From positions 1 through 38,854 of the IMG/VR virus record IMGVR_UViG_3300048625_000042: 38,854 nucleotides of DNA. The stretch is one strand, 5' to 3'. Below, piece by piece: positions 10,543 through 29,673 of the stretch. Every line of letters begins with the position of its first letter. Positions within the stretch are counted from its first letter, which is position 1. The translations under genes and the position numbers were made by a program. This DNA is from a virus. The notes under the pieces were generated by a model. That model worked only from the letters and a program-made list of their open reading frames with translations, searched no databases and was not told the DNA's origin.

Positions 10543-11229
10543 TTATTGTTTTGGTGTGAGAGTTTCCGCCATTGGGAAAATCTCGGCGATAATTCTTGCG
10601 CATTCCAACGCAATGTCTCGGTGTTCGAGTTGTGTACTTTCATCAGAGCGAACTTTGATAAAGTGAATCCAGCTACGGATTGTACCATTCATATACATAC
10701 GACTTACCGTGTTACCTTCTGGAAGGACAGCACGTGCTTGTTCTTTTGCGATACCAGCGCCTACTGCCCATTTGTAATTCTCAGTAGCCAATGAAATTAC
10801 TTCTTGTTGACGGCGTTCCCATTCTGCAACTAGAAACCGATCGTCTTCTGAATTCATATCTAATTGAATACTATTCTGACGGTTCTTGGTATCTTGGAGT
10901 CTAGCTTCACGAGTGACGAATGATAGATCCTTGGTAGGATCTGCATATCGTTGTGAAAATTCTTGGAAAGAGAAAGAGCGGTGGCGAAGAATCTGCCTTG
11001 CGATGTCACGTGTAGTTTCGATCTCCAGACATGCCGATACCATTTCTAATGGTGACCAGTGCTGGTGTTTGATCAAATAATTTATAAGTTTTTCCGAGGT
11101 TCCCATGTTGTACTGGTTGCTCGGATTGGATACACGTGCGCAAAAAGCAATAAGTTCTTGCACATCTGTCAAACCTTCATCGTACATCTCACGAGAGGGT
11201 TTGCTATAACTAATCATTCTAACTTTCAT
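10543..11229 (-). CDS. thyX: FAD-dependent thymidylate synthase
   Basis: A 228-aa ThyX. It makes dTMP from dUMP using methylene-tetrahydrofolate, NADPH and FAD. The signature RHRxxSxxxxSxR is exact at residues 82-94 (RHRSFSFQEFSQR), and downstream ISLATENYKWAV and ARAVLP fit. ATG at 11229 is chosen over 11241 because it overlaps the primase stop as ATGA and has GGAAG just upstream. No dUMP or dCMP hydroxymethylase is seen in the window, so thymine here would enter DNA unmodified; this bears on the TET-like enzyme at 28303. Confidence 0.93.
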   Translation of the reverse strand: MKVRMISYSKPSREMYDEGLTDVQELIAFCARVSNPSNQYNMGTSEKLINYLIKHQHWSPLEMVSACLEIETTRDIARQILRHRSFSFQEFSQRYADPTKDLSFVTREARLQDTKNRQNSIQLDMNSEDDRFLVAEWERRQQEVISLATENYKWAVGAGIAKEQARAVLPEGNTVSRMYMNGTIRSWIHFIKVRSDESTQLEHRDIALECARIIAEIFPMAETLTPKQ

Positions 11230-12257
11230 ATTTTCTTCCATGTACTAAATCTAAGTGTCGCTTCAATTCCTGAAAAGGTATTTGTATTTATCGTTTCCAG
11301 AATCTCCTCGGGTGTCAAACCACCCTTAATTATCATATCATTGATGTCTTTTTGTTCAATGTTCTCGGGGAACATACAAACACTGTATCCAGCTTTGATA
11401 TTCTTCTCGAGCAATTTACAGATGTCTCTTGCTCGAGGTTCATTGTCCATTACTAACGTTGCATTAGTAAGAAGGCTCCGCACAGTAGGGGTGTCAAAAG
11501 AGCTTCCTGACACAGCAATGCAATTGGGGATGAAGAGAGAGTCGAGTGGACCTTCCACAACATAGATTCGTTTGCTAAAATCAACTCGGTCGAGTCCATA
11601 AATTTTCTCCTCAGTCTCATCGACTTTAATGGTATAATACTTAGGTTGTTCATCTCCGAAGGCTCTGCCTTGAAAAGCAAAACACTTACCAGCATTGGTA
11701 AAGAACGGAATGATCAGTCGTGGGTGCTCATCGACAATTGGCTCTTGGAACTTAGGTGTTACTGAATTAACAAACGCTTTGAACTTAGGAGCAAAGTAAA
11801 GAAGGTTCCAAAACTCTCTGGGAATCTTCCTGTCGATAAGTGTCTTCATCGCAGGATGAGTCAGTGGTAACTTATCCATACGTGTAAGTTTTTCGAGAAT
11901 ATCATCCTCGAGTAATTCGATCTTTGGAGTTTCTAAGACGACTTGAGTGTCTGCAAGGTCTTTATGGTCATGATAACGGGTAGCGCCAGCCTTGTAACGC
12001 TCAAGAACATACTCATCGTATAAGGTTGTATCGACATACTTGATAAGGTTGCCGATGTTAGAAGAATAACCACACTTGTGGCACTTTGCAAGAAGGTCTG
12101 CTCTGGCACGATAAATGTATCCACGAGCTTTGTTTTTGTTACGTGAACTATCCCCACAAACTGGACAGCTGTAGTTCCAGAGATAGTCTTTCTTTTGATT
12201 GAAATTTCTTAGACGACTGCCTAAGATTTGAGCATACTTTGCATCAATGTATAACAT
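11226..12257 (-). CDS. DNA primase, gp61-like
   Basis: A 343-aa phage primase. An N-terminal zinc finger is formed by C31/C34 (CPVCGDS) and C59/C62 (CHKCGYS), which in T7 and T4 type primases reads the template priming site. A Toprim core follows: VVEGPLDS (233-240) with the catalytic Glu and VMDNE (269-273) with the Asp. It would lay RNA primers for lagging-strand synthesis together with the gp41-like helicase. The start lies 3' of a promoter embedded in a palindrome; GGAG at 7 bases upstream belongs to one arm of that palindrome. Confidence 0.9.
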   Translation of the reverse strand: MLYIDAKYAQILGSRLRNFNQKKDYLWNYSCPVCGDSSRNKNKARGYIYRARADLLAKCHKCGYSSNIGNLIKYVDTTLYDEYVLERYKAGATRYHDHKDLADTQVVLETPKIELLEDDILEKLTRMDKLPLTHPAMKTLIDRKIPREFWNLLYFAPKFKAFVNSVTPKFQEPIVDEHPRLIIPFFTNAGKCFAFQGRAFGDEQPKYYTIKVDETEEKIYGLDRVDFSKRIYVVEGPLDSLFIPNCIAVSGSSFDTPTVRSLLTNATLVMDNEPRARDICKLLEKNIKAGYSVCMFPENIEQKDINDMIIKGGLTPEEILETINTNTFSGIEATLRFSTWKKI

Positions 12258-21163: not shown

Positions 21164-21191
21164 ATTATAGTGTATCCTTTATTTAGGTCAA
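21164..21191 (-). promoter_or_regulatory. sigma70-like promoter TTGACC-N16-TATAAT
   Basis: On the minus strand TTGACC (21191-21186), 16 bases, TATAAT (21169-21164). Start would be near 21157, so the 332-aa mRNA would be almost leaderless. The -35 lies in the end of the upstream gene. Confidence 0.5.
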
Positions 21192-21878
21192 GCGATTATA
21201 CTTCCTATCCCATTTAGCGATCTGCTGGACAATCTTCTGAGGGGACACGTTATTTCTAAAGTCGTAGTTGAATGTCTTTAGAAAGTAGTGTAGAGTTTTA
21301 GAGTCTACTTTTCTCTTACATCGAGACAGTAACACATCTATATCGATGTTTGGTTTGAATACTCTGAAGTCTAGGTATACACAGTGGGCATATGCTTGGA
21401 TCTCATCAAACTCGGAAAGGTATCTTCTCTCCTCATCTTTCTTCTTATGCCCAACTCGTTTATATGGAACAACGTAGTTACTATAACTGTCGTCCCTACG
21501 ATCATACTGCATGAAATGGATTAGCTCATGCATGAGCGTTTGTATAAATCGGTATTTGAATCTATCCCATGACTCTGGAGTAAAGATATGAGAGTTGAAT
21601 TTTCTGGAATGGATGATTAAGGTGCATTGGCGATCTTCGGGAGAGTATTCTCCACCAATGGCGATGAAGTCTCGATAGACTTTAGCCTTAGATTTTTGTT
21701 CGATCCACTCGATTTTTGTACGCCACTTCTTGACGTAATTTGAAAGACCTAGAGAGTCATTTTCATACTTGTCTAGGTCTTTCCACACTTTAGCTGGAAT
21801 GAGTTTAGCACGAAATGGGCGCTCATAAAAGTTGAGCAGACCCATCCAGTCGTAGTTGGCGGTTTCTAGGAAATGCAT
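21183..21878 (-). CDS. HExxH metallopeptidase-like protein
   Basis: A 231-aa protein with HELIHFMQYD at 117-126, the HExxH zinc site of SprT and other gluzincin-like folds, after a hydrophobic LMHELI helix. A downstream E in YLSEFDEIQAYAH could be the third ligand. The rest is basic and aromatic. Start ATG at 21878 has GGGAGG but only 2 bases away, which is short; an internal ATG at 21845 is possible. It is last in the long replication and modification unit. T4-like phages often carry such proteins; substrate unknown. Confidence 0.6.
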   Translation of the reverse strand: MHFLETANYDWMGLLNFYERPFRAKLIPAKVWKDLDKYENDSLGLSNYVKKWRTKIEWIEQKSKAKVYRDFIAIGGEYSPEDRQCTLIIHSRKFNSHIFTPESWDRFKYRFIQTLMHELIHFMQYDRRDDSYSNYVVPYKRVGHKKKDEERRYLSEFDEIQAYAHCVYLDFRVFKPNIDIDVLLSRCKRKVDSKTLHYFLKTFNYDFRNNVSPQKIVQQIAKWDRKYNRLT

Positions 21879-21898: not shown

Positions 21899-22504
21899 TT
21901 AACTAAGTTGCTTCTCCAAATGTGCAAGGACTTTCGATTGTTCCTCTAAGTTAGTGTTATTGAACTCAGTAATGTAGGACATCAGGTCGAAATTAGACAG
22001 TATGTTACTATATTTAGTTTCTCGCCCTCTTAGGAATTGCTCGGATTGGTCGGAGCCTCGATCCTTATAACGCTGCTCTAGCATGGTCTGTGGAGCCTTT
22101 AAATAGACTACCTGAAGTTCGGTATTCGGGAGACCCATACAAAACTCTAGGAAAGACTGATTGAATACTCGGTCACCTTCGAAAAGGATGTTACAGTTAT
22201 GGGAGGCGATCCATTCTTGGAGTGGAGGTTGAACAGCCATAGAAAGACGATCTGTTCCAGCAAAGGTTTCACCCTCATCGTACTTACCCAGAACATACAA
22301 GTCTCGATCTTGGTTGTAGCTAGCAACTACTAACTTGGCTGGAGTAGTTTCGATCCAGCTTTTGTCTTCCATATACTTACGAAAGAGAGTAGTCTTACCA
22401 GTCCCTGGAACACCACCAACGGCGATAATCTTTCGAGTCTTCAGAGTGTTCTTGATCAACTCGACTTTGATCTCGTCTTGAACACCAAATTTATCAATCA
22501 TCAT
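21899..22504 (-). CDS. 5-hydroxymethyluracil DNA kinase-like P-loop kinase
   Basis: A 201-aa kinase. Walker A is GVPGTGKT (31-38). Two further blocks, YDEGETFAGTDRLSMAVQP (75-93) and ILFEGDRVFNQSF (106-118), match what I recall of the HMUDK family, which phosphorylates 5-hydroxymethyluracil in DNA as the step before its hydroxyl is displaced. It overlaps the second radical SAM gene (ATGATG junction) and closes the modification cluster. A general nucleotide kinase is the alternative, but the neighbours argue for HMUDK. The start may be one codon later (two ATGs in a row). Confidence 0.7.
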   Translation of the reverse strand: MMIDKFGVQDEIKVELIKNTLKTRKIIAVGGVPGTGKTTLFRKYMEDKSWIETTPAKLVVASYNQDRDLYVLGKYDEGETFAGTDRLSMAVQPPLQEWIASHNCNILFEGDRVFNQSFLEFCMGLPNTELQVVYLKAPQTMLEQRYKDRGSDQSEQFLRGRETKYSNILSNFDLMSYITEFNNTNLEEQSKVLAHLEKQLS

Positions 22505-23988
22505 ATTGCTCCAATCATTTCTTTATACTGATTAAGTTTAAAATTATTAACATTATCAAACATATATTTCGCAGACAAATTATCAAACGTATCATTTACT
22601 TGGTCTAAAGATAACCCCATACTTAAATACTGTTGAATGGCAAAGTCTGCAGGTTTATTTAATGGGTGACGTTTCTTATACATCTCTTCTGCTAAAATCT
22701 GGCACTGCTTGTAATCTAATCCTTGACTTTTAAGAGTCCAGAAGTTTTGATCATCTACCTCATACCCATAAATTTCTGGGTTAAGATTAAACTGAGAAGC
22801 ATTCGGATTTCGTTTCGTCATAGTTTTACCCAACAAACGTAACGGGTAGATCTCAATGAAAGATAATGGATTATCTTTTTGTAGAATCCATTGTTCTAGT
22901 TCATTGAAGTATTCATGTGTGTCATAAGGTAAACCAAGAATAAATCCTGCACCCATTTTAACATCGTCTCCCCATTTCTCTCGTAGCCAATGTAAACGAT
23001 CTTTTACTTTATTTGGATGCAAACCCTTACCAATCGCTCTTGCGCTTTCGTAGTGTAAACTTTCAATTCCAAAGAAGTTTCCAATTAAACCCATTTCTTT
23101 TAGTAAGTCTGCTTGATGCGGAAACTTATTGATAAGGTCAATTCTTAGATAAGCACTAAATTTAATTTTGAATGGTAACGAAGTGAACAATTTATGTATG
23201 CTCTCAACTTTATCATTGTCATCGTTAAAAGTATCATCTACGATATAGTAATTAGTGCATCCAGTAGTTTCCCATGTTCGGATTAAATCATCTCTGACTT
23301 CTTCAACATCTCTAAGATAAGTACCCTTCTTTTTACCAAGTAGTCCATAACCGCAAAATTTACATTTGAAGATACAACCACGTGCCATCTCTAATGGCAA
23401 AGACTCATCGGGTAAGACATTAAAGTCTTCTCTCCACCAATGAGTTCGTATGTTATCCATTTTAGGTTCTTCGTAATCATTAGAAACGATAACCATACTC
23501 TTACCATTACTACTTGTGTGGTGTTTACCGAGTAGACTAATATCATTATACTTCAGATATTTTGTATAGGCAATTGTAGATGTATCTGCATATCCTTGGA
23601 TGTAGCAGTCAATTTCATCATCGTTTTCATTGATTGCTCTAACACCAGCATACACAAGTTTTGCTTTGCTGTGAGATCTAATATAGTCAAACAACTTTAA
23701 TACATCATCATATTGGATATGTGGATACAAACGTTGCTTTTTATCTTCTGACCATCCCCAGAAAAATGTAGATGAGAACCCAACCCAAAGAGTATCTTGT
23801 TCAAGAACTTTTGACATAGCAGAAATGATTTCATCAATAGAGAGATACTGAGTGAAATCAATAACCCTTGCGTCAAAACCTTCATTTTCTAACGCAGAAG
23901 CTATTCTATATGGTCCAAGGCTCCGCATTATTCTTGGATAATGGTTATGTTGATGCATTCCACCAGCGAGTATAATGCAGTCTGCCAC
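22501..23988 (-). CDS. radical SAM protein with B12-binding-like domain (copy 2)
   Basis: A 495-aa protein. Residues 1-150 form a Rossmann-like domain of the B12-binding type (CIILAGG, LGPYRIASALENEGFDARVIDF, LWVGFSSTFFW), though no DxHxxG cobalamin-ligand motif is seen. The radical SAM core has C205-x3-C209-x2-C212 (CIFKCKFC) binding the 4Fe-4S cluster, and FGIESL and GAGFILGLPYDT in the expected later positions. The start is GTG at 23988, next to the previous stop. It is about half identical by eye to the copy at 24462. The role is probably a radical rearrangement or C-C bond step on a modified base. Confidence 0.8.
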   Translation of the reverse strand: MADCIILAGGMHQHNHYPRIMRSLGPYRIASALENEGFDARVIDFTQYLSIDEIISAMSKVLEQDTLWVGFSSTFFWGWSEDKKQRLYPHIQYDDVLKLFDYIRSHSKAKLVYAGVRAINENDDEIDCYIQGYADTSTIAYTKYLKYNDISLLGKHHTSSNGKSMVIVSNDYEEPKMDNIRTHWWREDFNVLPDESLPLEMARGCIFKCKFCGYGLLGKKKGTYLRDVEEVRDDLIRTWETTGCTNYYIVDDTFNDDNDKVESIHKLFTSLPFKIKFSAYLRIDLINKFPHQADLLKEMGLIGNFFGIESLHYESARAIGKGLHPNKVKDRLHWLREKWGDDVKMGAGFILGLPYDTHEYFNELEQWILQKDNPLSFIEIYPLRLLGKTMTKRNPNASQFNLNPEIYGYEVDDQNFWTLKSQGLDYKQCQILAEEMYKKRHPLNKPADFAIQQYLSMGLSLDQVNDTFDNLSAKYMFDNVNNFKLNQYKEMIGAI

Positions 23989-24462
23989 TTAAACTTTACC
24001 TTGCTTAACGTCTTCGATTAGACTAACCAATTCTTCTCGGGTAAACACCCATACACGACCACGGAAAGAGTGGGTAGAAGTATCGGGGTCATGCTTCTTA
24101 GAGAATGACAGCTTCTTAATAAACTCACGAGCACAATTCTTGGCCATGGCTTCTTTAATTTCTTCAGCATAGTTGACGTTCTGTTCTTTCAGCGTCAACA
24201 GTTCTTGCTCTTGGACTTTATGTTCAACAACGAATTGATTGAACTCATATTTCTCGAGCATGTCATCTGGGTTCACTTTGATGGTGAAACCACTACCAAC
24301 ACCCTGATTAGCAGTAACAACATTATGGGCACTCCAATTACCAACAGCACCAATAGAAGATGGAGTAGTAAGCACTGCGTTAGACATAATGGTTTGTAAT
24401 CCATTGTTAGTCATAATTTTCAAATCACCATCGTCATTAATAACATCACCAACATTACTCAT
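23989..24462 (-). CDS. 157-aa protein between the radical SAM genes
   Basis: Start ATG at 24462 overlaps the upstream stop as TGATG; an in-frame GTG one codon earlier is less likely. The N-terminal half is Asn-, Gly- and Val-rich (SNVGDVIND, TTPSSIGAVGNWSAHNVVTAN). A helix follows, then AREFIKKLSFSKKHD and FRGRVWVFTREEL. No family is recognised with confidence. Its place between two paralogous enzymes and its coupling to both suggest a partner or an unrelated insertion. Nothing marks it as a peptide substrate (no Cys-rich core). Confidence 0.55.
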   Translation of the reverse strand: MSNVGDVINDDGDLKIMTNNGLQTIMSNAVLTTPSSIGAVGNWSAHNVVTANQGVGSGFTIKVNPDDMLEKYEFNQFVVEHKVQEQELLTLKEQNVNYAEEIKEAMAKNCAREFIKKLSFSKKHDPDTSTHSFRGRVWVFTREELVSLIEDVKQGKV

Positions 24463-25970
24463 CACATAGCTCCAATCATTTGTTTATAAGAATCAATTTT
24501 TAGTTTATTCATAGCAGGTATATCATATTTGTTAAAGATTTCAATTTCAGTAAGGTTGTATAAATCATCTATCTTAATCCCAGTGTTCAACGCAGTGATC
24601 ATTTGGAACTCCGCAAATTTATTTTTACTACAAATATCTCTACTAAAATCTGATGCTATCTGTTTGCAAATATCATACGACAGGTTTTGAGATTTCAGTT
24701 CCCACTTGATATTGTCTGTTGGAAATGTGTATCCATAGATGTCGGGGTTTAAAGAAAACTCAGAAGTATAAGCATCAAGTCTACCGCCTTTTTGTCGATT
24801 AAACAAATATAATGGATAGAAAGAGATTTGTTGCAAAGGGTTATCTGATTCTAGACACCATTTATACAAGTCATCATAGTACTCAAAAGTATCATAAGGC
24901 AACCCAAGAATAAACCCAGCGCCGATGTTAACCTTTTTATTCCATTTCTCATGCAACCAATATAATCTATCCTTGACTTTTTGTGGAGACAATCCTTTAC
25001 CGATACACTTAGCACTATCTGCTTGCAGAGTTTCAATACCAAAGTAGGTGCCAACTAAACCCATCTCAGTTAGCATATCTGCTTGATGCGGAAACTTATT
25101 GATAAGATCCATTCTTAGATAAGCACTAAATTGAGGTTTAAAAGGTAACGAAGTGAATACTTTATGTAAAGATTCAATCTTATCATTGTCATCGTTAAAA
25201 GTGTCATCAGTAAAGTAGTAAGAAGCAGTCCCTGTGGACTCCCACATCTTTATTAGTTCTTCTTTGATACACTCAGGGTCACGCAGATAAGTGCCTTTCT
25301 TTTTACCGAGCAATGGATATGTACAGAACTTACACTTGAAAATACACCCACGAGCAAGTTCAATAGGTAAACCTTCATTTGGTAGAATGTTGTATTGTTT
25401 ATTCCACCAGTTAGTTGTGATATTATCCATTTTAGGTTCTGGATACTTGTTAGAATCTATAACGTAACTAATGGAATCATCGATAGTAATCTCTTGCACG
25501 TCGGTTAGTGGAACACCATCTTTAAGATAGTTTGATAATTCTATAATTGAGTTATCTGCATAACCAACCACATAGTAGTCGATGTTTTTATCAACTAAAG
25601 AGAATGGTGCCTTGGCTCCACCATAGACGACTTTAGCAGTACTATGCTCTCTAACGTATGAAATTATCTTATTGATGTCTTCATAGTCAGTCCAGTACAT
25701 TCTTTCTAGTTGAGATCTATTGTAGAAGTTATCATTCGCCCAAAAAAATGTAGATGAGAAACCAACCCATAAGGTGTCAGAAGTTAAATTCTTGCTTATG
25801 ACTTTAATAATTTCATCAACTGTCATATTAACAACATAGTCAATAACAGTTGTGCTATATCCAGCGGCTTCTAACGAAGTCGCTACACGATATGGTCCAA
25901 GACTCCGTTGAACTTTAGGGAAATGTTCAGGAGTCCAAGTACCACCAGTTAAAATAATACAGTTAGACAA
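24462..25970 (-). CDS. radical SAM protein with B12-binding-like domain (copy 1)
   Basis: The start is placed at TTG (25970) by alignment with its paralogue: TTG-encoded M-SNCIILTGG matches MADCIILAGG. GGA lies 5 bases upstream. This gives 502 aa. C209-x3-C213-x2-C216 (CIFKCKFC) is the radical SAM cluster site; LGPYRVATSLEAAGY and LWVGFSSTFFW mark the Rossmann-like N-terminal domain; FGIETL and GAGFILGLPYDTFEYY follow. Both copies share an EPKMDNI-x-T-x-WW block before the cluster. Overlaps the transferase-like gene by 8 bases. Confidence 0.8.
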   Translation of the reverse strand: MSNCIILTGGTWTPEHFPKVQRSLGPYRVATSLEAAGYSTTVIDYVVNMTVDEIIKVISKNLTSDTLWVGFSSTFFWANDNFYNRSQLERMYWTDYEDINKIISYVREHSTAKVVYGGAKAPFSLVDKNIDYYVVGYADNSIIELSNYLKDGVPLTDVQEITIDDSISYVIDSNKYPEPKMDNITTNWWNKQYNILPNEGLPIELARGCIFKCKFCTYPLLGKKKGTYLRDPECIKEELIKMWESTGTASYYFTDDTFNDDNDKIESLHKVFTSLPFKPQFSAYLRMDLINKFPHQADMLTEMGLVGTYFGIETLQADSAKCIGKGLSPQKVKDRLYWLHEKWNKKVNIGAGFILGLPYDTFEYYDDLYKWCLESDNPLQQISFYPLYLFNRQKGGRLDAYTSEFSLNPDIYGYTFPTDNIKWELKSQNLSYDICKQIASDFSRDICSKNKFAEFQMITALNTGIKIDDLYNLTEIEIFNKYDIPAMNKLKIDSYKQMIGAM

Positions 25971-26979
25971 AATTATCCAGCCCAATTAATAAAGGTTGAT
26001 CATCAAACATCATCTCAAGTCCACTCAACTGCCCTGTCGCTAAGAAGTCTCCGAATCTTTCCTTATTGATACCACGCTTGTGAATATGTATGCTGTTAAT
26101 AGTTTCTTCTCTAGAATCCCACATCACTTGCCATTCAATACCAGCCCATCCATCACGTTCAGCCACTTGAATCTCTTCAGCTTGTCGATCAAGGTAATAG
26201 CTAAGATATCTACCATGCTTAGTTCTAAATAGTTTCTTAAAGGAACATAGGCAGGTTTCCATTGTAAAGTAGTCTACTTGACTAGCCAACGATGGAAACC
26301 GATCTTTCATCTCAGATCTAATTCCGTTGCCAATAGACTCAAGTGTAGCGTACTCGCTTCCAGTGAGTTTTCGATCCATATCGTCATCCTGCCCAATGGC
26401 AAGAAGAAGTCCATTACGATGAGAACGGGAACCATCATAATCATCCAGCATGAGAGAAGTAGGCTCACAAATAATACCAGCAGTGTGTTTAAGATGCTGC
26501 ATGTAAAACCAAGTAGAATATCTACCAAACTTGTGCAAGTTTCCTTTAAGTACGCTCCACAACGCATCAAAGTTTTGAGACTCATTGTCCCCGTAGTACG
26601 ATTCGAGTTTTTCACGTTGAGATCCATTTCCAATAAATTTCTGATATGATTCGAACATCGCAGGTAGATGCCCTTTGTTCCACTTTGTATCTGTCTGGTA
26701 ACGTAGACGTTTGTAGTTCTTAGAATTCCAATCAGTGATACGTCCAAGGTCAGCCAGTTCGTAGTCAGGGAATTCGTTCTTCAATACCCATGCAGTTGGA
26801 AGTTGATAGGTGTTACCATATAACCACGCAAGCCAGATACGTTCTTCATCATTATGTTCATATCGATCATTGAGATAGTTCGTAGCCCATACTGCTGGAT
26901 CACAATCATTATACTGAAGTGACCAAGCATACCAACGGATGAATGCTTCACGTCGGTTTTCTTTTAAACGATAATCCAT
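25963..26979 (-). CDS. amino acid:DNA transferase-like protein (AGPT-Pplase/ADDT type)
   Basis: A 338-aa helical protein. Blocks that stand out: NDCDPAVWATNYL (24-36), RIWLAWLYGNTYQLPTAW (47-64), NKGHLPAMFESYQKFIG, LHKFGRYSTWFYMQHL (148-163) and DDYDGSRSHRNGLLLAIG (179-196). These fit my memory of the glycosylase-like AADT/aGPT-Pplase families, which replace the pyrophosphate on hydroxymethyluracil in DNA with an amino acid or amine. It ends IGLDNFV, similar to the polymerase tail. TAATG overlap with the GNAT gene. The call leans on context; an HMM test is needed to confirm it. Confidence 0.55.
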   Translation of the reverse strand: MDYRLKENRREAFIRWYAWSLQYNDCDPAVWATNYLNDRYEHNDEERIWLAWLYGNTYQLPTAWVLKNEFPDYELADLGRITDWNSKNYKRLRYQTDTKWNKGHLPAMFESYQKFIGNGSQREKLESYYGDNESQNFDALWSVLKGNLHKFGRYSTWFYMQHLKHTAGIICEPTSLMLDDYDGSRSHRNGLLLAIGQDDDMDRKLTGSEYATLESIGNGIRSEMKDRFPSLASQVDYFTMETCLCSFKKLFRTKHGRYLSYYLDRQAEEIQVAERDGWAGIEWQVMWDSREETINSIHIHKRGINKERFGDFLATGQLSGLEMMFDDQPLLIGLDNFV

Positions 26980-27620
26980 TATTTCAAAAAGTCTTCAAGT
27001 GATGGTTGATCCATTAACGCTTCGCGCAACCAAGACTTACCAACAGTATCAATTGCAGTCTGTGTCTTGGCTTTCTTCTTCTCACCCCATGTGTAAGATT
27101 CCAAACCCTCAGCAAGGAATTGCGCACGAGCCTTTGCTGGTGGTAATGCTTGAAGTGGGTTTACAATGGATTTGTCTCTGTAGGCAATTTGCTCGGCACG
27201 TGTAGGGAATAGTGGTTGGTCTGAGCGGAGTGAACCAGTGGGATCAACTGCCCAAAAGACCAACCCATTGCGATTGTGCCAGCTGACAGAGGATGGGGTA
27301 CAAGAGATTTTAAGTCGTTGGATCTTTCGTTCTTCGACTGCGTATTTGATCCACGCATCCCAGCATTTGGACGCATAACCTTTACCTTCTTGACCTTCGA
27401 TGGTGACGATTTCGTAGAGGTTGGCATATCCATCCCGATTAAATGTAGCAAAGATTAGAGAAACGACTTCACCGTTGACTTCATAAGCCATCGGAAGAGA
27501 CTTATCGTAGTTATGGAAACGAGTCCACAATGAGTGTGCAGCCGATAAGAACTTAGTGTTCTTACCAGCTGGACTGCTTTCGATAAGCTGTTGTACTTTT
27601 GTTGAGTTCACAAGAATCAT
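26979..27620 (-). CDS. GNAT acetyltransferase-like protein
   Basis: A 213-aa protein. The GNAT fold shows in MAYEVNGEVVSLIFATF, NLYEIVTIEGQEGKGYASKCW (acetyl-CoA loop at 77-83) and KISCTPSSVSWHNRNGLVFW. A C-terminal extension of about 70 residues ends QPSLEDFLK, near-identical to the DNA polymerase end SSLEDFFG. In thymidine-hypermodifying phages acetyltransferases act on the amine added to the base, so the same is inferred here. It overlaps its neighbours as ATGA (upstream) and TAATG (downstream). Confidence 0.7.
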   Translation of the reverse strand: MILVNSTKVQQLIESSPAGKNTKFLSAAHSLWTRFHNYDKSLPMAYEVNGEVVSLIFATFNRDGYANLYEIVTIEGQEGKGYASKCWDAWIKYAVEERKIQRLKISCTPSSVSWHNRNGLVFWAVDPTGSLRSDQPLFPTRAEQIAYRDKSIVNPLQALPPAKARAQFLAEGLESYTWGEKKKAKTQTAIDTVGKSWLREALMDQPSLEDFLK

Positions 27621-28303
27621 AATTGATAATCCACTGCACCTTGGATGTCTACTTTCTCTAAAAGATGAGACAAGTGTTCATCGATAGTATGATAGATGTT
27701 CATAGACAGCGGTACAGTTGTATAGTTTAAATTGGCGCGTTTTGCAACGTTAGCCGTAGAAGTAATTATACACCCAGAATCCAAAACTGTCAAGTATAAT
27801 GGACGCTTGCCATTGCGATATGCTCGTAGGGTTCTATCTGTATGCAACTCACAAACAGCAAGACTTGCATCTTTCCAATGCTCTAGTGGGCTGTAATCAG
27901 CGAGGGAACGGAGTAAGAGTTCGGTGTCGTTCTTTCCATCGCATGCGTATCCGTGCAAGACTTCCCAATCAGCAGGATCGTGCTGAGTAATAACACCATT
28001 ATGGACAATTGATGTTGATTCATTTGCTATCGGTTGGTTATACAATAAATCGCTAGTGCTATATCTACAGTGACCAATAAGGTAAAGAGTACCATCGTCA
28101 TCAACCATATCCTCCAAATCATCTAGTTTTCTGAACTCATCCGCTGGGACAGGTTCTTTAAAAGTATGGATTACCCCACCTTTGAGGTAGGACAATCCAG
28201 TCGCATGTAAACCACGAATACGAGACTCGTGGAATACACTTCTAATCATATCAAAGTGAGTTGCTGTGGGTTTTTTAATCACAGCACCGATAACAGCACA
28301 CAT
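27617..28303 (-). CDS. class II glutamine amidotransferase domain protein
   Basis: A 228-aa stand-alone glutaminase domain of the Ntn type. Cys2 right after Met is the nucleophile (MCAVIG), with RGLHATG (30-36), GHCRYST (77-83), HNG (101-103) and NDTE (125-128) in the GlmS/PurF/AsnB order. There is no synthase or transferase domain, so the ammonia must go to a partner. TET/JBP and HMUDK-type phage clusters have been reported with such amidotransferases. Overlaps the dioxygenase as TAATG. Amidation of a base-linked carboxyl group is the likely use, but this is inference. Confidence 0.8.
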   Translation of the reverse strand: MCAVIGAVIKKPTATHFDMIRSVFHESRIRGLHATGLSYLKGGVIHTFKEPVPADEFRKLDDLEDMVDDDGTLYLIGHCRYSTSDLLYNQPIANESTSIVHNGVITQHDPADWEVLHGYACDGKNDTELLLRSLADYSPLEHWKDASLAVCELHTDRTLRAYRNGKRPLYLTVLDSGCIITSTANVAKRANLNYTTVPLSMNIYHTIDEHLSHLLEKVDIQGAVDYQL

Positions 28304-29673
28304 TAAAAGAAGCCTTCAAGTGAATTAGATTTCACAGACAATGGATGATACTTATGAAGTTCTTCAGTACCCAACTTACGTTCGCAGTAGTCGTACCACT
28401 CTTTGTCTTCCCACATACCTTGACTCACACCATTCCATAAGTGACGAGCAGAGCCGTCTTCATTCTTATGACCTGGATGTTCTTTGTCAAGACGACGAGA
28501 CTCAACATATTCATAACGACAATCTTCGTATGCCTTGGAACCCAACTCAAGCATCTTCTCACGGAAATAGCATACCAAAGAAATACGCTCGGCATTCTCG
28601 TCACCAAGAACAATTGGAGTATTACCATGCATAACTTCATGGTTATTAATCAATAGTAAATCACCTGGACGCACGTTAACAGCAACACGATACTCTGGAG
28701 CGATCAAATAACCACCAGTGTAATTACCATTGTTAGAAAGAACCAACAAGTTAGATAAACCAGTCTGTAAGTCACCAGCATCGTAGTGAGCAGCAGTTCT
28801 GAAAGTCTTGTTCACTGTGATTGTAGTGAATGGAGTTCCTGGAACTAAGAAGCCTTGATCGATTTTCTTGGCAGCTTCCATCTGATTATTGTAACGCCAT
28901 GGGAGCAAGTCTTTAAAACCTTTAGCAAGAGTCTGCAGGAATGGGAATGCCATGGCAAACTTTTCTGGCTCTCTAGCAGTATAGCTTGTTGCACGACCAT
29001 AAGGGATGCGTGGATAACGATCGAACCAACCAGCAATACCAGACATAACACCATTGGCGTAAGTAGTTGAACAGACGTAACGCTTAACGACGCGCTCTGC
29101 TTCTTTCTTCATGTCATCTTCGTTCATGCCTTTAGTGGCAGCAACCCAAGTCTCAAAGTCGAAGCCATCTTTCTTAACTGCTTGGATACCCCAAACGTTG
29201 TTACGTGTAGATGGTTGGTCTTTCTTACCCTTGTGTGCTGCTTTAATATCCTCTACTGGATCAGCACCAAACAAGTTAGCCTTTGGGTTAGAGAAATAAT
29301 CAATGATGTCATATTCATACTCAGTCACCCATTCACGGTTACCAAGTTTCTCTGCACGTGGACCAGCAGCCATACCACGGTTCTGTGTCTCTACTGCAGC
29401 TTCTTTAAGACCAGCATAAGCTGCGTCCTGTTGCTCTTTACTGAAGTAGTTCTTACGGAACTTAAACGCAATGCGTAGTTCATCAGTACCCTTGTCGCAA
29501 CCAGCACAGTCTTTACCAGTACCGCAGTCAGCTTGAGTCGCAATGTCACAGTTAGCTGGCATATACACGTCAGCGTCTTCATCAACCAAAATGTCGTAAT
29601 GTGATTCATCTAGGAATTGTCCTTGTAGATGAGCGCAGTCATACTTTCTTTCTGCTACAATTACTTTAACCAT
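28303..29673 (-). CDS. TET/JBP-family Fe(II)/2-oxoglutarate dioxygenase
   Basis: A 456-aa protein; ATG at 29673 has AAGGAG 7 bases upstream. The core, VNKTFRTAAHYDAGD (287-301) with HxD at H296/D298, NYTGGYLIAPEYRVAVNVRPGDLLL, NNHEVMHGNTP with distal H349, and R363 for 2-oxoglutarate, closely follows the JBP1 and phage TET pattern. These oxidise the methyl of thymine (JBP) or 5-methylcytosine (TET) in DNA. A Cys-rich N-terminus (C42, C50, C56, C59) may bind zinc. It ends SNSLEGFF, polymerase-like. It lies directly after gp41, tying modification to replication. Confidence 0.8.
   Translation of the reverse strand: MVKVIVAERKYDCAHLQGQFLDESHYDILVDEDADVYMPANCDIATQADCGTGKDCAGCDKGTDELRIAFKFRKNYFSKEQQDAAYAGLKEAAVETQNRGMAAGPRAEKLGNREWVTEYEYDIIDYFSNPKANLFGADPVEDIKAAHKGKKDQPSTRNNVWGIQAVKKDGFDFETWVAATKGMNEDDMKKEAERVVKRYVCSTTYANGVMSGIAGWFDRYPRIPYGRATSYTAREPEKFAMAFPFLQTLAKGFKDLLPWRYNNQMEAAKKIDQGFLVPGTPFTTITVNKTFRTAAHYDAGDLQTGLSNLLVLSNNGNYTGGYLIAPEYRVAVNVRPGDLLLINNHEVMHGNTPIVLGDENAERISLVCYFREKMLELGSKAYEDCRYEYVESRRLDKEHPGHKNEDGSARHLWNGVSQGMWEDKEWYDYCERKLGTEELHKYHPLSVKSNSLEGFF

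Follow-up and report, generated by a model that had tools for sequence, protein, structure and literature searches.

A TET/JBP-based gene cassette of a T4-like virus with a predicted role in post-replicative hypermodification of thymine

What is the function of a viral gene cassette that joins a TET/JBP-family oxygenase to an amino acid:DNA transferase, a nucleotide kinase and two radical S-adenosylmethionine (radical SAM, rSAM) proteins? The question arises from an IMG/VR virus record of 38,854 bases (the window), which is a fragment of a viral genome. Eight genes on its minus strand occupy exactly positions 21899-29673, in the order TET/JBP oxygenase (TET), glutamine amidotransferase (GATase), GNAT acetyltransferase, amino acid:DNA transferase (ADDT), rSAM-1, a 158-aa protein, rSAM-2 and kinase. 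Neighboring genes overlap by 1-8 bases, as an earlier sequence-only reading of this DNA had stated for the whole set; the sole exception is the 158-aa/rSAM-2 pair, which abuts. Pfam assigns seven of the eight proteins to families above the curated cut-offs, all but the 158-aa protein. We consider it likely that the cassette enables a T4-like virus to hypermodify thymine after replication, by a pathway in which TET, the kinase, ADDT, a capping enzyme and the rSAM proteins would take part. The observations behind this reading are the gene content, the motifs, the synteny, the co-occurrence of the genes and the absence, within the reach of family searches, of alternative sources of hydroxymethyl pyrimidines.

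The TET gene (28303-29673) encodes a 2-oxoglutarate (2OG)-Fe(II) oxygenase of 456 aa from the ATG at 29673. The protein matches the Pfam model Tet_JBP (PF12851) with an E-value of 1.8e-26 and a score of 92.7 bits, where the curated cut-off is 34.9, and it matches phrog_24024 with an E-value of 2e-160; its profile also matches human TET2 in the PDB (E = 1.7e-4). The HxD...H/R pattern seen in the sequence-only reading corresponds to H304, D306, H357 and R371 in the numbering of the 464-aa open reading frame, which are the iron ligands and the 2OG-binding arginine and are invariant in 23 homologues.

The ADDT gene (25963-26979) encodes a 338-aa aGPT-PPlase-like protein, which matches PF18724 (E = 1.3e-20, 74.6 bits; curated cut-off 26.2) and phrog_3271 (7.5e-54) and shares 26-29% identity along its entire length with ADDT proteins from Montesquieu (annotated as clade 2), Zemanar-type and Vibrio phages. 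The kinase gene (21899-22504) encodes a P-loop nucleotide kinase, which is predicted to be a 5-hydroxymethyluridine-DNA kinase. Its best-scoring Pfam model is Ploopntkinase3 (PF18751, 6.6e-7, above the cut-off), the family that also contains Zemanar gp4 (3.3e-71). The window kinase falls in phrog_800 (1.4e-13) together with gp54 of phage M6, a 5-hydroxymethyl-deoxyuridine (5-hmdU) DNA kinase by Pfam, and the hhalign alignment with gp54 (E = 3.3e-6 over 123 columns) spans the P-loop, the GKY...GTDRL region and the LFEG segment. The family searches that the sequence-only reading had named as its own test were run, and they place neither the kinase nor the 338-aa protein in an unrelated family.

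Between TET and ADDT lie two smaller genes. The GATase gene (27617-28303) encodes a class II (N-terminal nucleophile, Ntn) glutamine amidotransferase domain protein, in which the Pfam search found no synthetase domain. It matches GATase_6 with an E-value of 1.8e-9, its best NCBIfam match is PurF (2e-7), and the N-terminal nucleophile Cys2 and the Arg, Asn-Gly and Asp motifs (R80, N102-G103 and D126) are invariant in 18 homologues. The GNAT gene (26979-27620) matches Acetyltransf_1 (PF00583) above the cut-off, with an E-value of 1.1e-5. The assignments of the Cys2 glutaminase, the GNAT protein, the ADDT-like protein and the two CxxxCxxC radical SAM proteins, which had first been made from motifs, are thus all borne out by the family searches.

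The linkage of these genes was examined in two samples of IMG/VR, which are independent in how they were found, although some contigs are common to both. The TET-anchored sample comprised 80 of 356 matched stretches, and the ADDT-anchored sample, in which linkage could be followed without selecting for TET, comprised 80 of 568. The recurring order is gp41-TET-GATase-GNAT-ADDT-(158 aa)-kinase. In the ADDT-anchored loci with enough flanking sequence, TET was found upstream in 34/34, the kinase downstream in 55/55 and GATase in 47/49. The conservation of this order in dozens of diverged contigs shows that the cassette is not a product of chance, and the invariant catalytic residues, together with ratios of nonsynonymous to synonymous substitution (dN/dS) of about 0.03-0.23 for the measurable cassette genes, indicate that selection preserves the encoded proteins. 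The cassette is a real and widespread system.

From these components we infer each chemical step, the order of the steps and the protection that the product would give. Ordinary thymine would first be copied into the viral DNA. After replication, the TET/JBP enzyme would hydroxylate the thymine methyl group to 5-hydroxymethyluracil (hmU), as JBP hydroxylates thymine in DNA for base J; this reaction would take the place of the dUMP hydroxymethylase on which phages such as M6 and ViI rely. Phosphorylation of the hydroxymethyl group by the kinase would then yield phospho-hmU, and ADDT would exchange the phosphate for a nitrogen nucleophile, which could be an amino acid or else ammonia set free by the glutaminase. 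Acetylation by GNAT would cap the resulting amine or amino acid, a role taken by an amidoligase in sister viruses, and the probable role of the two B12-type rSAM proteins would be methylation of, or another change at, sp3 carbons in the side chain. The hypermodified DNA would be protected against host nucleases.

The part of the glutaminase in this scheme deserves separate consideration. The sequence-only reading had proposed amidation of the added carboxylate, which is doubtful in the window because Pfam recognized no ATP-dependent ligase among the cassette proteins. A possible alternative role of the glutaminase is the delivery of ammonia to ADDT, in analogy to PurF, which displaces pyrophosphate. 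The slot after GATase is occupied by either GNAT or an amidoligase-like protein and never by both, in 49/49 ADDT-anchored loci (23 GNAT, 26 amidoligase-like) and in 64/64 TET-anchored spanning loci (59 and 5, respectively), and GATase is retained with either capping enzyme. The amidoligase-like protein of contig L056 is above the cut-off of Pfam Amidoligase_2, and the others are 27-30% identical to it. If ammonia were the nucleophile, ADDT would produce 5-aminomethyl-deoxyuridine, and the interchange of GNAT and amidoligase would follow from the ability of both to acylate its amine; the B12-type rSAM proteins would C-methylate the side chain. This detailed scheme is put forward tentatively, next to the alternative of amino acid transfer by ADDT, which the name of its family implies. 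If true, it would combine a glutamine-dependent amination of a DNA base with a cobalamin-dependent radical enzyme acting on DNA, and we know of no description of either. A separate feature of this region is a low-molecular-weight-phosphatase-like gene between the amidoligase and ADDT genes in L056 (13011-13433, PF01451) and L094 (2974-3396).

The genes of rSAM-1 (24462-25970, with a TTG start inferred from homologues) and rSAM-2 (22501-23988) match Radical_SAM (PF04055) with E-values of 6e-13 and 6.4e-13, and the CxxxCxxC motif is invariant in 16 sequences. The match of rSAM-1 to the B12-binding model PF02310 (9.5e-4) is below the cut-off; its AlphaFold model, with a predicted template modelling score (pTM) of 0.85, has an N-terminal B12-binding-like Rossmann domain. 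The best PDB matches of this model in Foldseek are OxsB, MgmA, CysS and TokK (E down to 2.3e-12, TM score about 0.5), all of them cobalamin-dependent rSAM enzymes, and the best NCBIfam matches are B12-rSAM families. The two proteins are thus predicted to belong to the cobalamin-binding class, an addition to the sequence-only reading, and the members of this class are mostly methylases. C-methylation of the side chain would be the favored rSAM step, and the radical rearrangement suggested earlier is not favored because the predicted fold is that of B12-rSAM enzymes. M6 gp53, presumably the rSAM isomerase of M6, was considered as a relative of the window proteins and rejected, as the BLASTP E-value was 0.14 and the hhalign match (E = 0.09) lay outside the rSAM core.

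The rSAM genes are accessory to the cassette. They are absent in 41 of 53 loci spanning ADDT to the kinase, a single rSAM gene is present in the other 12 loci (10 contigs), and two occur, among such loci, in the window only; close relatives such as L030, whose kinase is 97-98% identical, have none. It is conceivable, if doubtful, that these genes are a mobile cargo with no role in base modification and that the pathway consists of TET, GATase, GNAT, ADDT and kinase. In addition to the frequent absence, this would agree with the occurrence of rSAM relatives in viral loci that lack the cassette, in three cases beside tryptophan halogenases, and with the intermixing of copies from inside and outside the cassette in the tree. 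However, cassette copies lie between ADDT and the kinase in at least 10 contigs, the window genes have translational overlaps, and two separate clades reached the same ADDT-kinase position. rSAM-1 and rSAM-2 are 53% identical and fall into these clades with a support of 1.00, which, together with a synonymous divergence (dS) of about 1.9, rules out a recent tandem duplication.

The relatives next to halogenases form an observation of their own. In the viral contigs L012 (7700-10748), L015 (2-2766) and L016 (545-5933), they directly follow a tryptophan halogenase gene (PF04820), and L016 also carries an rSAM protein like the SPASM peptide maturases, so as to resemble a small viral natural-product cluster. 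The gene of the 158-aa protein (23989-24465), which lies between the two rSAM genes in the window, is often found between ADDT and kinase and is missing from some cassettes. An alignment of 24 homologues shows a conserved C-terminal half and a variable N-terminus. No family match above the cut-off was obtained in Pfam, PHROG or NCBIfam; Stx2B-like NCBIfam matches (E = 0.05, far below the cut-off) were rejected as chance, and the AlphaFold prediction, with a predicted local distance difference test score (pLDDT) of 49, indicates that the fold is not predictable.

The next question is which base TET would oxidize. A pathway on cytosine, in which TET oxidizes 5-methylcytosine (5mC) made by a host methyltransferase or an undetected viral one and the other enzymes decorate hydroxymethylcytosine, appears improbable. 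It is favored by the fact that the substrate of TET is not readable from the sequence, and by the known phage systems: a review (PMC12730594) describes TET as often accompanied in phages by a C5-methyltransferase and glycosyltransferases, and a phage TET is reported to be active in C5-cytosine hypermodification, according to the title of Burke et al. 2021 as cited in that review. However, the C5-cytosine methyltransferase model PF00145 was matched in 0/14 virus records, i.e. the window and 13 records with relatives of cassette genes, five of which are 162-171 kb long, where controls were detected in 10/14 genomes; nor was it found in Zemanar, Cr30, DLP6 or C48C1. The text of the report with restriction data for DLP6 (PMC5349666) does not state the digestion result. 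A motif scan of 161 loci also found no C5-methyltransferase, but the scan had no positive control, so the argument relies on the PF00145 searches. Furthermore, the pathways in which ADDT and 5-hmdU kinases are known act on thymidine.

The sources of the hydroxymethyl group point in the same direction. A ThyA-type enzyme (PF00303) was not found in the window or its relatives, including the five cassette-bearing records of 162-171 kb, and this absence is meaningful because the model detects the divergent enzymes of M6, ViI, Vibrio phage D506 and Montesquieu. These four phages carry ADDT, as assigned by Pfam in M6 and D506, by annotation and tblastn in Montesquieu and as background knowledge in ViI; TET was not found in any of them (4/4). 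The complete genome of Zemanar encodes TET, ADDT and kinase, and no match to PF00303 or PF00145 was found in it. TET thus looks like a replacement for the hydroxymethylase. The thymidylate synthase ThyX is present in 5/5 of the long cassette-bearing records and in the window (10543-11241, minus strand; PF02511, 4.5e-46 at 10573-11166), where it would supply ordinary thymidine monophosphate, consistent with thymine as the starting base. The proposal of a hypermodification cassette that starts from a TET/JBP-made hydroxymethyl pyrimidine therefore stands, and the genomic context supports, rather than proves, thymine over 5mC as the substrate.

Several points weigh against this assignment. Cr30 has a TET gene as well as a PF00303 enzyme, so that the mutual exclusion is not absolute unless this enzyme is a true thymidylate synthase; its score of 373 bits, compared to 49-86 for M6, ViI, D506 and Montesquieu, fits an ordinary one. 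As the window covers just 38.9 kb of a genome, the absences refer to related records, the completeness of which is not stated, and 5mC could come from a methyltransferase that is divergent or encoded by the host. Direct comparison of the window ADDT with M6 ADDT (gp51) gave no significant alignment, and its membership in the family hence relies on the Pfam model. The HMUDK-like kinase of the sequence-only reading stood as to the homology with M6 gp54 and phrog_800, whereas the Pfam model HMUDK_HMUD1 (PF18748) was not matched. A homologue of the partner HMUDK_hel (PF18723), which in M6 is gp55, not an ADDT, was not found in 10 relative records, in a search without a positive control. The DNA modification of these viruses is a prediction from their genes. 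A role on tRNA, protein or a small metabolite is very unlikely: metabolites and proteins are further substrates of the GNAT, GATase and B12-rSAM families, and some phage TETs are annotated as tRNA-ribosyltransferases, but all roles known or predicted for TET, ADDT and an HMUDK-type kinase in combination concern DNA, and the cassette is located after gp41, the gene of the replicative helicase.

TET genes also occur in other surroundings. A second 2OG-Fe(II) oxygenase lies between TET and GATase in L035 (11362-11958, PF13759), with BLAST relatives in the same gap in L020 (7048-7650), L036 (11368-11964), L077 (11347-11946) and L008 (5810-6403). In the T4-like relative L070 (11356-13106), the genes after TET encode a nucleotidyltransferase of the heptose type and a glycosyltransferase of the GT-B type in place of the cassette, which looks like a sugar version of the same TET start; in L068, L073 and L075, which have no cassette, TET is followed by genes similar in size to this pair. 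In Synechococcus phage S-CBWM1 (L112, 3729-6061) and Nonlabens phage P12024L (L114, 4803-7068), TET is paired with the TET-associated glycosyltransferase PF20691, and no C5-methyltransferase was seen near the pair; this is possibly a base-J-like system. ParB-like proteins adjoin TET or ADDT genes in three unrelated viruses (L065, 9127-10422; L113, 4018-4647; L171, 1-798). In public records (among L105, L106, L112, L171 and L110), TET is misnamed 'SNF2 DNA repair protein' or 'queuine tRNA-ribosyltransferase', and HMUDK-type kinases are misnamed 'terminase small subunit'.

Outside the cassette, the minus strand of the window carries T4-like replication genes for DNA polymerase, UvsX (assigned from the sequence), gp41 helicase, ribonucleotide reductase and primase, in addition to ThyX. 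A protein with an HExxH motif (HELIH; 21183-21878) adjoins the kinase in nearly all relatives and is probably outside the pathway, because it is also present in viruses without the cassette.

These results indicate that a phage TET/JBP enzyme can stand in for pyrimidine hydroxymethylases, with hydroxymethyluracil made after, not before, replication. They connect the TET start with a chemistry that employs a glutaminase, interchangeable enzymes for acyl capping and radical enzymes of the B12 type, in viruses represented by hundreds of environmental contigs. The window virus may make a DNA base not yet described. Since Zemanar and Cr30, which share the core genes, are in culture, the prediction could be put to the test in laboratory strains, and the cassette enzymes could serve as new DNA-marking tools.

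Compared to known systems, the window shares TET as the start of hypermodification with the phage system of TET, C5-methyltransferase and glycosyltransferase, as far as that system is described where Burke et al. 2021 is cited (PMC12730594), and differs from it in that the relatives gave no match to a C5-methyltransferase and the cassette contains no glycosyltransferase gene. The M6/ViI-type pathway has ADDT and a 5-hmdU DNA kinase in common with the window, and M6 also has an rSAM protein; however, the hydroxymethyl group there comes from a PF00303-type hydroxymethylase without TET, M6 gp53 is not detectably related to the window rSAM proteins, and M6 has a pyridoxal phosphate (PLP) enzyme. 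The Caulobacter phage isolate Cr30 resembles the window in gp129 (TET, 46-47% identical), gp123 (ADDT, about 26%) and gp114 (kinase, 37%), whereas its three genes are spread over 9 kb, a weak TAGT glycosyltransferase match is present, no GATase or rSAM was recognized, and it has the canonical-scoring PF00303 enzyme and no ThyX. In the Coopervirus mycobacteriophage Zemanar, gp1-gp4 are ParB-like, TET/JBP, ADDT and Ploopntkinase3 proteins, so that TET, ADDT and kinase are contiguous as in the window, and Zemanar is like the window relatives in both enzyme absences given above. Its TET is below the Pfam cut-off, its proteins are less than 30% identical to those of the window, and GATase, GNAT, amidoligase and rSAM are not annotated within the 8.8 kb examined. 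The combination of TET, ADDT and kinase is hence not new, being already present in the isolates Zemanar and Cr30, and the earlier claim that the exact set is undescribed is narrowed accordingly. Iyer and colleagues reportedly predicted in 2013 that TET/JBP-made hydroxymethyl pyrimidines serve as starts for further chemistry; the general idea is alike, and the window is set apart by the combination of GATase, GNAT or amidoligase, and B12-rSAM in T4-like viruses, which is undescribed as far as could be checked.

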